In this document: in pieces, positions 52,654 to 56,537 of the stretch
Layout: the number at the start of each line of letters is the position of its first letter
How positions within the stretch are numbered: position 1 is the first letter of the stretch
DNA from: Ectothiorhodospira lacustris
Lineage (GTDB): Bacteria; Pseudomonadota; Gammaproteobacteria; Ectothiorhodospirales; Ectothiorhodospiraceae
Direction: 5' to 3'
Length of the DNA: 64,000 bases
NCBI RefSeq assembly: GCF_022227845.1
Contig: NZ_JAJNQN010000018.1
Location: 1-64,000 of the forward strand
Program-made: the position numbers and the translations under genes
The notes under the pieces: model-generated
The model's input: only the letters and a program-made list of their open reading frames with translations
Databases searched by the model: none
What the model was told of the DNA's origin: nothing

Positions 52654-54153
52654 TCAGGTTCCACAGAAGGTCTGATACACCCGCTCCGTCGGGGCCGGGG
52701 GCCGGGCATAGGCCTGGTCGGCCTCCGCCAATACCCAGGGATTGCGCACCACCCCGAGCAGCCGCCTAAACGGCTCGAAATCCTCAGCCTCCAGGGCCGC
52801 CGCAATCACCTGCTCCACCCGATGATTGCGGGGGATACAGGCCGGGTTGACCCGCCGCATGCGCACGGCCCGCTCCCCGGGGGGCAACGGGTCCTGCCGC
52901 AAGCGGGACCGCCACTGCTGCGCCCAGGCAACCAAGGCCTCGGGCTGTGCAAACAGCCGGCGGACCGGCTCATCATGGGTCTCGTCTTCGGCCGCATCAC
53001 ACAGGTGGCGGAAACACAGCGTGAAATCCACCTGCCCCTGCTGCATGGCCTGCAGCAACCCTTGGATCAGGGCGATGTCACTCTTATCGGCCATGCTCAG
53101 TCCCAGCTTGAGGCCCATTACGTCAATCCAGTGACGCGCAAACCGGCTGGAGAAGGAATTTACCAGATCCGTGGCCTGTTCCAACGCCTGTTTTTCGTCA
53201 GAGCCGATCAGCGGCAGCAATGTCTCGGCCAACCGGGCCAGATTCCACTGGGCCATGGCCGGCTGATTGGCGTAGGCATAACGCCCCTGGGTATCGATGG
53301 CACTGAAGACCTGATCCGGATGATAACCATCCATGAAGGCGCAGGGGCCGAAATCGATGGTCTCTCCGGAAACGGCCATGTTATCCGTATTCATCACCCC
53401 GTGGATGAAACCCACCCCCATCCACTGGGCCACCAGCCGTGCCTGGGCCTCCACGACGGCCTCCAGCAGGGCCAGACAGGGCTGATCCGCCTCACGGGTC
53501 CAGGGGTAATGCCGATCCGCAACATGATCCGCCAGCTGCTGCAGCGCCGCCCGGTCGCCGCGCACGGCGAAATACTGGAAGGTCCCCACCCGCACATGGC
53601 TGGCCGCCACCCGGGTCAGGACGGCGCCCGGCAGGGCCGTTTCCCGCAACACCGGTTCGCCGGTGGAGACGGCGGCCAGGGCACGGGTGGTAGGGATGCC
53701 CAGGGCATGCATGGCCTCGCCGACCAGATACTCCCGCAGCACCGGCCCGAGGGCGGCGCGGCCATCCCCCCGCCGGGAAAACGGGGTACGGCCCGATCCC
53801 TTGAGCTGGATGTCCCGGCGCCGTCCCCGCACATCCACCACCTCCCCCAGCAGGACGGCCCGTCCATCCCCCAGTCGGGGCACGAAATGCCCGAACTGAT
53901 GGCCGGCATAGGCCATGGCCAGGGGTTCCGAGCCGGGCAGTATGCGATTACCCGCAAACACCTGGCCCCATTCTTCCGGCGTCAGGGCCAGAGGATCAAT
54001 GCCCAGTTCCCGACACAGGTCGTGGTTGAGTTCGATCAGGGAGGGATCAGGCACCGGATCCGGGTCAAGCCGGACATGGAAGGCGTCCGGCAGACGGGCA
54101 TAGGTGTTGGAAAACGGGATTGGATCAGGTGCCGGGACGGTCACGGAGTTCAA
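52654..54153 (-). CDS. selO: Protein adenylyltransferase SelO (YdiU)
   Basis: 499 residues, full length. Pseudokinase fold that AMPylates proteins. Lys118 in QLKGSGRTPFSRRGDGR binds ATP; Asn/Asp of HGVMNTDNM (Asp257) and DFGP (Asp267) hold the metal. GHQFGHFVPRLGDGRA is the family signature. The C-terminus ends CGT: one Cys near the end, in the position where eukaryotic SelO has selenocysteine. Linked to oxidative stress in other bacteria. Upstream 390 bp (54154-54547) holds no recognisable gene. Confidence 0.95.
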   Translation of the reverse strand: MNSVTVPAPDPIPFSNTYARLPDAFHVRLDPDPVPDPSLIELNHDLCRELGIDPLALTPEEWGQVFAGNRILPGSEPLAMAYAGHQFGHFVPRLGDGRAVLLGEVVDVRGRRRDIQLKGSGRTPFSRRGDGRAALGPVLREYLVGEAMHALGIPTTRALAAVSTGEPVLRETALPGAVLTRVAASHVRVGTFQYFAVRGDRAALQQLADHVADRHYPWTREADQPCLALLEAVVEAQARLVAQWMGVGFIHGVMNTDNMAVSGETIDFGPCAFMDGYHPDQVFSAIDTQGRYAYANQPAMAQWNLARLAETLLPLIGSDEKQALEQATDLVNSFSSRFARHWIDVMGLKLGLSMADKSDIALIQGLLQAMQQGQVDFTLCFRHLCDAAEDETHDEPVRRLFAQPEALVAWAQQWRSRLRQDPLPPGERAVRMRRVNPACIPRNHRVEQVIAAALEAEDFEPFRRLLGVVRNPWVLAEADQAYARPPAPTERVYQTFCGT

Positions 54154-54660: not shown

Positions 54661-54830
54661 ATGGACCCGCCTGCTGTCGGTCCTGATACATCAGTAAAGG
54701 GGTAGTCATCCCATGTGCCATTGATGCCACCGTCTATTTGACGGCCAGTCTCCACCCGCCCCCGCAAGAAGGGGGAGTCCTTGGTATCCCTGGAATTGGG
54801 CATTGAAACATGCCCTGCGGCCCTAAACAC

Positions 54831-54866
54831 AAAAAAAGAGCCACCCCTACGTGAACAGGAGCGGCT
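54831..54866 (-). terminator. Rho-independent terminator of the tRNA-Leu gene
   Basis: On the minus strand AGCCGCTCC and GGGGTGGCT pair (with G-U pairs) around a 10-nt loop and are followed by seven T residues. It lies 5 bp past the CCA end of the tRNA. Confidence 0.85.
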
Positions 54867-54871
54867 TTGGA

Positions 54872-55184
54872 TGGTGCCCGAGGCCGGAGTCGAACCGGCA
54901 CGCCTTCCGGCGAGGGATTTTCTTACCACTTCGACTTTCGCCGCCAGCACAGGCTCGCTGTTCGTGGTCTGGAGCACGCCTTCACCATAGCCTTGCGGCC
55001 GTAGGTGCCCGCCGTCTGCTCTCTACACCTTCCCAGGCGCCGGGCCTGGGCTTGGCTCGGCGTTGGCTCGGATACCGGGGCATCCAGGGCGTTCGCCGAA
55101 TTTGACGGGTTCCACCCCTGGGGTTTCCCCCGGAGGGCTCAAATTGTTCAAGTCCCTTGTGTCTACCAATTTCACCACTCGGGC
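54872..55184 (-). tRNA. tRNA-Leu(UAA), interrupted by a group I intron
   Basis: Joining 55184-55150 (35 nt) to 54921-54872 (50 nt) gives an 85-nt leucine tRNA. The acceptor stem GCCCGAG/CTCGGGC is perfect, CCA is encoded, D-arm is GTGGTGAAATTGGTAGACAC, anticodon stem AGGGA/TCCCT encloses CTTAAAA (anticodon TAA), variable arm CGCC-GGAA-GGCG, and T-arm GCCGG-TTCGACT-CCGGC. The intron lies directly after U34. TATACT at 55205-55210 (minus strand) is a plausible -10, and a T7 terminator follows. It decodes UUA codons; no second copy is seen in the window. Confidence 0.96.
54922..55149 (-). ncRNA. Group I self-splicing intron in tRNA-Leu(UAA)
   Basis: 228 nt, starting after U34 and ending in G. 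The core helices occur in group I order: P3 55104-55108 with 55012-55016; P4 55094-55099 (UCGGCG) with 55057-55062 (CGCCGA); P6 55045-55050 with 55032-55037; P7 55017-55021 (GAGCA) with 54972-54976 (UGCUC), immediately followed by P3'; P8 capped by GCAA; P9 55-type pairing of 54964-54968 with 54925-54929. P2 is GGGG-GAAA-CCCC. The internal guide GAGCCC pairs with the exon end GGACUU through a U-G pair and an A-C mismatch. Layout resembles the cyanobacterial tRNA-Leu introns (subgroup IC3). No homing endonuclease ORF is present. Confidence 0.94.
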
Positions 55185-55283: not shown

Positions 55284-56537
55284 GTGTTTCCCACCCTCAC
55301 ATCCGTTTCCACTCTGCTCCTGGGCATGGGCATCCTGCTCTGCGGCTCCGGCATGCTGGGTACCCTGCTGGGCCTGAGCGCCGCTCAGGAAGGCCTGCCG
55401 AGTTGGCTGATCGGCCTGGTCATGTCCGGCTTTTTCATGGGCTTCATCATCGGCTCGTTCCTGTGTCCCGGCCTGATCCGCCGGGTGGGGCACATCCGTG
55501 CCTTTGCCGCCCTGGCCGCCGTATCGGCCATTGCCGCCCTGCTCCACGGTCTGATCTTCGATCCCTGGGTGTGGTGGGTATTGCGCATCGTCAACGGCAT
55601 CTCGGTGGTGGGGCTGTACATGGTCATCGAAAGCTGGCTCAACGAACGGGCACGACAGGACCGGGGCCAGGTCTTTGCCTTCTACATGACGGTCTGCCTG
55701 GTGATGCTGGGCGTGGGACAGTTCCTGGTACTGATCTACGGACCGGGACATCTGGCCAGCTATGCCCTGGTGGCCATCCTGTTCGCCCTGGGACTGATCC
55801 CCATCGCCCTGACGCCGGCCCTGCAGCCCACGCCCATCAAGGCCCAGGCCCTGCCGCTGAAGACCCTCTACGGCAGGACCCCGGTGGGCGTGATCGGGGC
55901 GCTGGTGGCAGGGATCGCCTCGGGGGGGTTCTGGGGGTTCGGGGCCATCTACGCCCAGCAATCGGGTATCGAGCCCCTGGGGGTGGCCGCCTTCGTCAGC
56001 GCCGTGATCCTGGGCGGCGCCCTGCTGCAGTGGCCCATCGGCTTTTTCTCCGACCATCGGGACCGGCGCTGGATAATGGTCTTTGCCTGCGTCGGTGCGG
56101 CTCTGGCGGCCCTGGCCATCTTCATGGCCGTGAATCAGTCACTACCGGCGTTGCTGGTAGCGGCCCTGTTCTACGGCGGGTTTGCCTTCAGCCTCTACGC
56201 CCTGGCGGTGGCCCATACCCATGACCGACTGGATGTCACCCAGGTGCTGGAAGGCACCCAGGGACTGCTCCTGCTCAACGGCATCGGCGCCACCCTGGGG
56301 CCGCTACTGGCGGGGATTGCGGTCAGCGTCGCCTCCATCAGTGTACTGCCCCTGCTGTTCGGCACCATCATCGTGCTGCTGGCCCTGTTCGCACTCTGGC
56401 GGATCCTTCGAGAACCGCCGGTGGCCCCTGAAGAGAAAGCCGGCTTCGTGCCGGTCACCCGCACCTCGGCGGTGGCCGCCGAGTTGGATCCGCGCACCGA
56501 ATTGCAGTCGGAGTTGGACCTGGCACACAAACCGTAG
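55284..56537 (+). CDS. Major facilitator superfamily transporter (YcaD-like)
   Basis: 417 residues with about 12 membrane helices. The MFS signature between helices 2 and 3 reads FLCPGLIRRVGHIRAFA, and IESWLNERARQDRGQVFAFYM after helix 4 is typical of YcaD-type permeases. A second charged loop SDHRDRRW follows helix 8. Substrate unknown. Start is GTG 55284 with no good ribosome site; a later start would lose helix 1. It begins 99 bp from the divergent tRNA-Leu gene. Confidence 0.86.
   Translation: MFPTLTSVSTLLLGMGILLCGSGMLGTLLGLSAAQEGLPSWLIGLVMSGFFMGFIIGSFLCPGLIRRVGHIRAFAALAAVSAIAALLHGLIFDPWVWWVLRIVNGISVVGLYMVIESWLNERARQDRGQVFAFYMTVCLVMLGVGQFLVLIYGPGHLASYALVAILFALGLIPIALTPALQPTPIKAQALPLKTLYGRTPVGVIGALVAGIASGGFWGFGAIYAQQSGIEPLGVAAFVSAVILGGALLQWPIGFFSDHRDRRWIMVFACVGAALAALAIFMAVNQSLPALLVAALFYGGFAFSLYALAVAHTHDRLDVTQVLEGTQGLLLLNGIGATLGPLLAGIAVSVASISVLPLLFGTIIVLLALFALWRILREPPVAPEEKAGFVPVTRTSAVAAELDPRTELQSELDLAHKP

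Follow-up and report, generated by a model that had tools for sequence, protein, structure and literature searches.

The window, a stretch of 64,000 nucleotides of Ectothiorhodospira lacustris DNA, contains on its minus strand at 55184-54872 a tRNA-Leu(UAA) gene that is split after U34 by a group I intron of 228 nt, as identified by ARAGORN with introns allowed. Read along this strand, the gene starts with the 5′ exon GCCCGAGTGGTGAAATTGGTAGACACAAGGGACTT (55150..55184, 35 nt), which runs from the acceptor stem to U34 and was delimited by ARAGORN on the window and on the joined exons. The intron follows (54922..55149, 228 nt), of the IC3 type and without an ORF, with the omega-G at 54922; it is supported by ARAGORN, by the Rfam model RF00028 and by covariation. 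The 3′ exon AAAATCCCTCGCCGGAAGGCGTGCCGGTTCGACTCCGGCCTCGGGCACCA (54872..54921, 50 nt, ARAGORN) leads from A35 to the encoded CCA. A terminator-like hairpin with a T run lies 3′ of the tRNA on the same strand (54831..54866) and is homologous in the copies of the same genus and in those borne by integrative conjugative elements (ICEs). A divergent gene on the plus strand (55284..56537), which probably encodes an MFS-type transporter, marks the same locus in two further genomes, G002 and G003. On the 3′ side of the tRNA a minus-strand gene (52654..54153), presumably SelO/YdiU-like, matches G003 DNA at 87%, at a place ∼14 kb away from the tRNA-Leu of that genome. Beside the tRNA terminator we also observed a short block (54668-54796) that is 91% identical to a block in G002; there an ABC-F-like ATPase gene lies between this block and the tRNA.

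In its default mode, without introns, ARAGORN returned zero tRNAs in the window. With introns allowed, the sole result was tRNA-Leu(taa) c[54872,55184] i(36,228); joining its exons yields a clean 85-nt tRNA-Leu(UAA) cloverleaf. The insertion between U34 and A35 of tRNA-Leu(UAA) places the intron in the tRNA-Leu(UAA) intron family. The coordinates and boundaries that the first-pass annotation had proposed for a tRNA-Leu(UAA) split after U34 by a compact group I intron thus proved exact by ARAGORN, Rfam and covariation, and the exons join to the faultless leucine tRNA that it had described. It had also predicted that standard tRNA finders miss the gene, in line with the blank default run and with tRNAscan-SE 2.0, which by its own statement is not designed for detecting group I introns (PMC8450103). 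The Rfam search that it had suggested gave a match of Intron_gpI (RF00028) at 55159-54999 with 32.7 bits and E=1.5e-6 (651-base search, permissive threshold). This score lies under the Rfam gathering score of 50 bits for Intron_gpI, a tool threshold and not a biological criterion, and a routine Rfam scan therefore misses the intron: Rfam at the gathering threshold gave no match over the window, nor did RF00028 over the whole genome. Nawrocki et al. doubted that one Intron_gpI alignment captures all group I subtypes (PMC6125680).

We characterized the fold of the intron with 39 intron cores from many bacteria, for which an RNAalifold consensus was computed and P7 was added as a pseudoknot. All helices are given here on the minus strand. 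In P1 (55138..55152) exon CUU and intron GAA pair with UUUGAG (IGS), which places a U34·G pair at the 5′ splice site; TTGAG is conserved in relatives. The inner stem of P2 (55120..55131, GGGG/CCCC with a GAAA loop) is paired in 90% of cells with three pairs changed on both sides. The 5′ strand of P3 (55104..55109, CCCGUC) pairs with GGCGGG at 55013-55008, with 100% of cells paired and four doubly changed pairs. Covariation supports P4 (UCGGCG/CGCCGA), which encloses an irregular P5 (55057..55099), P6 with P6a (55027..55056) and P8 (54983..55007), the last with a GCAA loop and the motif CCUACG...UAUGG inside. The guanosine-binding helix P7, whose 5′ strand GAGCA (55017..55021) pairs with UGCUC at 54976-54972, is pseudoknotted with P3 and is likewise paired in 100% of cells, with three doubly changed pairs. 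P9 (CCAC/GUGG), P9.1 and the GAAA-capped P9.2 (54926..54967) were located by the alignment of whole introns.

The RNAalifold consensus of the 39 cores comprised P3, P4, P5, P6, P6a and P8, and 15 of its pairs show change on both sides. When P7 was added, 99.1% of cells were paired, compared with 82.4% in shuffles and no more than 48% in controls with slid structures, and compensatory change was seen in 18 pairs, distributed over P3, P4, P5, P6a, P7 and P8; none of 500 shuffles reached as high a value. P7 in particular reads GAGCA/UGCUC in the window but GACUA/UAGUC, GACUG/CAGUC or GACUU/AAGUC in others. A second alignment of 26 whole introns backed P2, P9.1 and P9.2 as well. The group I helix order, GNRA loops and terminal G that had been noticed from the sequence are thereby joined by a covarying core including the P3-P7 pseudoknot; P8, P9 and the GNRA loops also hold, and the irregular P5 is an addition to the earlier list of helices. 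A covariance model built from the 39 introns scores the window intron with 138.8 bits (E=2e-34), a value that arises partly by construction because the window intron is one of the 39 members. The minimum-energy fold of the single sequence fails to reproduce the core (z -2.1), by a method that leaves out pseudoknots. With P3-P8 and P4-P6 domains, the guanosine site in P7 and the P3/P7 pseudoknot (covariation, Rfam), and with a U·G pair in P1 at the 5′ splice site and a terminal G (sequence), the insert is a group I intron. It is small (228 nt), lies in a tRNA anticodon loop and has a short irregular P5 without a P5abc extension; size, site and the missing extension fit subgroup IC3, in which P5a-d are absent (PMC11835236). 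An endonuclease ORF, such as a mobile (homing) group I intron would carry, was not found in the 228 nt.

The window intron is one more member of a known family. It has the host gene, the site after U34, a P1 with U·G and the P3-P8 core in common with the tRNA-Leu intron of Anabaena. It differs from the cyanobacterial type in a shorter P6, a P9 closed by CCAC/GUGG and a different P8 loop, and its identity to the Anabaena sequence is ∼54%. The IC3 intron of the Azoarcus pre-tRNA-Ile has a near-identical core layout, but host tRNA and P9 differ. Vepritskiy et al. in 2002 reportedly described a tRNA-Leu(UAA) intron of 231 nt with the P8 motif CCUACG...UAUGG in the Pseudomonas-like isolate SMCC D0715. 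Judged by this description, both introns are gammaproteobacterial, of similar length (231 versus 228 nt) and share the P8 motif, although the isolate belongs to a different lineage from the host of the window. A Stutzerimonas intron (L133) in the clade of the window intron is ∼90% identical to it. In Beggiatoaceae (Thiomargarita, BOGUAY) interrupted genes for tRNA-Leu(UAA) and tRNA-Arg(UCU) have been described, with the type of interruption left undetermined there (PMC4853749).

The genome (G000) is a draft of 3.28 Mb in 49 contigs with a completeness of 99.93%. Besides the gene in the window it lists 43 further tRNA genes (RF00005, anticodons read), whose leucine anticodons are UAG, CAA, CAG and GAG; no other tRNA-Leu(UAA) is among them, and a search of the genome with the intact tRNA-Leu(UAA) of a sister genome found at full strength only the two exons of this gene. 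Both the tRNA listing and the direct search, which follow a check proposed in the first-pass annotation, hence leave it as the sole copy found. As the draft is in 49 contigs, an unassembled repeat could conceivably hold a second tRNA-Leu(UAA). The tRNA list of the genome also misses tRNA-Ile(GAU) and tRNA-Ala(UGC), probably because the rRNA operons are unassembled. UUA codons are rare but used: eight neighbouring genes contain 6 of them in 4338 codons. Since the gene is the only one found for reading these codons, splicing should be essential; both splicing and essentiality are predictions. The precursor RNA would fold into P1-P9 and bind an external guanosine at P7, which would lead to a cut after U34 at the U·G pair of P1; U34 would then be joined to A35 after the terminal G, with release of the 228-nt intron and a spliced tRNA that would read UUA. 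The setting is a gammaproteobacterial phototroph, as had been stated before, because reaction-centre genes are present in the genome.

A single strict DNA pattern of the intron was found in at least 119 stretches of GTDB genomes. Hosts among the matches listed belong to the Alpha-, Beta- and Gammaproteobacteria, Acidobacteriota, Bacteroidota and Actinobacteria, many of these hosts being represented solely by MAGs; the table of a 2014 review lists only cyanobacteria, alpha- and betaproteobacteria (PMC4033280). We examined 80 of the at least 119 loci: tRNA-Leu(UAA) is the gene interrupted at most of them, and tRNA-Arg(CCU), -Leu(CAA), -Asn and -Thr at others. At E≤0.001 the covariance model matched 73 of the 369 gammaproteobacterial genomes searched, and in 35 of the 369 a match reaches at least 60 bits. 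Matches of at least 60 bits were taken as real, and weak matches of model R1 (26–60 bits, many covering only positions 16–91) were left out of the intron count. Within the window's own family, 3 of 47 genomes have a full-length strong match. The counts in the Gammaproteobacteria and in this family indicate an intron family that is widespread but patchy, and together with the spread over several phyla they do not agree with the earlier view that such introns are rare outside cyanobacteria.

Several observations were made along with this survey. ARAGORN labelled many relatives as tRNA-Phe, tRNA-Ser or 'Stop', labels that we rejected in favour of the exon reading, which gives tRNA-Leu(UAA); the mislabelling occurs because the splice site is misplaced by 1–3 nt. 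Five loci (L105, L106, L117, L120, L138) are pattern-matched introns in tRNA-Asn of Actinobacteria, in betaproteobacterial tRNA-Thr(UGU) and in a probable tRNA-Ile or -Lys. In gammaproteobacterial MAGs, tRNA-Leu(UAA) introns (L093, L096, L101, L129, L139) carry on the antisense strand an HNH-like ORF of ∼155 aa, which lies between P6 and P7 (P6 loop); such ORFs occur only in distant relatives of the window intron and are possibly homing endonucleases. A complete, unannotated intron-bearing tRNA-Leu(UAA) occurs in 635 of 5426 complete E. coli genomes, and 1280 plasmid records contain it as well. This copy lies beside aac(3)-IId and the gene of an AAA ATPase, together with ISCfr1 and IS26 (L031:3995-4295, L032, L035, L230, L231), and is nearest in the intron tree to that of the alphaproteobacterium Enterovirga (L124).

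For the origin of the window's copy we compared introns, exons and flanks. The intron is 96% identical to that at the same locus of G002, a genome of the same genus. Outside the genus the closest among the matches listed is in Variovorax (intron 93%, exons 97.6%), and the introns of Rhodanobacter and Stutzerimonas are each 90% identical. Exon identities run parallel to intron identities (90–98%). In the intron tree, a phylogeny that the first-pass annotation had proposed, the window intron falls within a supported clade of 15 beta- and gammaproteobacterial entries (98/97, the bootstrap being not fully settled), set apart from other gammaproteobacterial introns. The Anabaena sequence forms a very long branch in this tree, and only its low identity was used. 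A recent transfer from a cyanobacterium, which had been considered earlier and would suit a phototrophic host, is not supported, since the nearest introns are beta- and gammaproteobacterial (93–96%, against ∼54% for Anabaena); the tree contradicts it, and we consider it very improbable.

A further genome of the genus, G003, carries at the same locus an intact tRNA-Leu(UAA) whose halves are only 82–84% like the window exons. G002 and G003 are 96–98% identical over most of the flank, with 96.6% over 3 kb on the MFS side, but on the other side identity falls to 86% for ∼3.6 kb and around the tRNA the two cannot be aligned. The exchange starts ∼24 bp before the tRNA and includes exons, intron and terminator. 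As G003 has an intact and different tRNA-Leu(UAA) at the same locus, the sequence comparison demonstrates that the whole gene was replaced relative to the sister genome. Plain vertical inheritance within the genus, the second possibility that had been raised, does not fit this intact gene with different exons. Descent from an old tRNA-Leu intron common to cyanobacteria and plastids, lost in most relatives, would account for the same insertion site, the similar P1/IGS and the wide scatter over phyla, yet a full-length strong match in so few genomes of the family and exons that track the intron across classes rather than the genus make it improbable. We thus conclude with high confidence that the locus is a working tRNA-Leu(UAA) gene with a small ORF-less IC3 intron, and that the whole gene arrived by horizontal replacement within a beta-/gammaproteobacterial pool.

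This replacement could have come about by plain homologous recombination of the tRNA locus with DNA of another proteobacterium, no element being involved. The G002/G003 pattern, with high identity on the MFS side, lower identity on the other and unalignable surroundings of the tRNA, is what is expected of a recombination tract. Stutzerimonas and Azonexus hold the intron-bearing gene inside an ordinary tRNA-Gly/Cys/Leu cluster, and recombination of the whole tRNA-Leu locus is said to have been found in cyanobacteria by Rudi et al. in 2002. The nearest donors belong to other orders and classes, however, where flank homology would be small, and we give recombination a probability that comes close to even.

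A different route is suggested by integrative elements that carry intron-bearing tRNA-Leu(UAA) genes in relatives. In G015, a genome of the same family and another genus, a 43.2-kb element (G015:C1:1988354-2031663; L232-L234) splits the native tRNA-Leu(UAA). An intron-bearing tRNA-Leu(UAA) sits just inside one element end, with the native 5′ half ∼200 bp upstream of it, and the native 3′ half lies 43 kb away, adjoining a tyrosine integrase. The two halves have CTTAAAATC in common, and a perfect tRNA-Leu(UAA) results when they are joined there; the insertion point is the anticodon loop. The element codes for the integrase, ParB, RepA, a DUF3363 protein, TraG, TrbB, TrbE, TrbL, TrbG, TrbI and kdp-type cargo; integrase and the ParB/RepA/TraG/Trb gene set identify it as an ICE. 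Like the genomic islands found in tRNA genes (Islander, PMC4383910), it enters a tRNA gene by a tyrosine integrase. Islands of this kind usually make the split gene whole again at their end; in G015, by contrast, neither native half is repaired, and the native gene is replaced by a complete intron-bearing one within the element.

The element end of G015 recurs in a Lysobacterales genome (99.8% identical), in Hydrogenophaga (∼88–90%) and in Variovorax (85%), and at each of these places the broken native 5′ half is a different one; a Rhodanobacter locus (L153) is similar. Five further loci (L078, L088, L089, L112, L149), from Phenylobacterium, Bradyrhizobium, Sphingobium, one unclassified proteobacterial and one acidobacterial genome, have an integrase-like gene between a broken 5′ half and the intron-bearing tRNA-Leu; they represent a second element type with the same habit. 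Two of their integrase-like proteins were scanned: that of Phenylobacterium scores above the Pfam Phage_integrase cut-off, and for the acidobacterial protein there is only a weak SAM-like match. A profile of the integrases from the five loci matched its own members only. In L111 a broken half is present but other genes lie in between. Altogether, among the matches listed, 11 loci including G015 (10 further) have a broken native 5′ half upstream of the intron-bearing gene, both element ends being verified only in G015; a second tRNA half within 1.5 kb was found at none of 22 intact tRNA-Leu loci. That elements carry intron-bearing tRNA-Leu(UAA) genes is well supported.

The gene in the window may accordingly be the relic of such an ICE, which would have entered the native tRNA-Leu(UAA), provided its own copy and later been deleted together with both halves. 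Just such an element is present within the family in G015, where the native tRNA-Leu is split at CTTAAAATC, and the gene of the window with its terminator is 88% identical to the element copy over 354 nt. The recurrence of the same end beside different broken native halves in Lysobacterales, Hydrogenophaga and Variovorax also speaks for it, as does the closest intron outside the genus, which among the matches listed is that of Variovorax. Against it, those 354 nt of tRNA gene and terminator are all that the window shares with the element, and the similarity ends at the first bases of the tRNA. Native halves and an integrase flank the intron-bearing copy in G015 and not in the window, and neither tRNA halves nor an element end nor further element homology were found in the window and its own genome. 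Descent of the window's copy from such an element is therefore only a tentative proposal, which we rate somewhat below an even chance.

The position of the intron itself hints at a possible role in these elements. The element would break the host tRNA-Leu(UAA) at CTTAAAATC and supply a full copy whose intron splits exactly this sequence; the integrase could then not use the intron-split spare copy, and splicing would restore the tRNA. That the intron interrupts precisely the sequence used by the element suggests that it shields the replacement gene from the integrase. The wider picture, in which intron-bearing tRNA-Leu(UAA) genes are replacement modules of anticodon-loop elements, the intron shields the spare copy and the window's copy is a leftover, is plausible and still rather less than probable.

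Within the set of papers searched, nothing relevant was found on group I introns, tRNA attachment sites and integrases taken together. While the gene type itself is already known, the link of relatives of the window's copy to integrative elements is the part that would be new to the specialist. Introns of this family are frequent in Proteobacteria and also outside them, are mostly overlooked by annotation and are partly tied to mobile DNA; the copy that stands unannotated in complete E. coli genomes marks a gap in present tRNA annotation. If the shielding of the replacement gene is true, a group I intron would be of concrete use to its carrier element by removing the attachment site from the spare tRNA, which would bear on the persistence of group I introns in tRNA anticodon loops.
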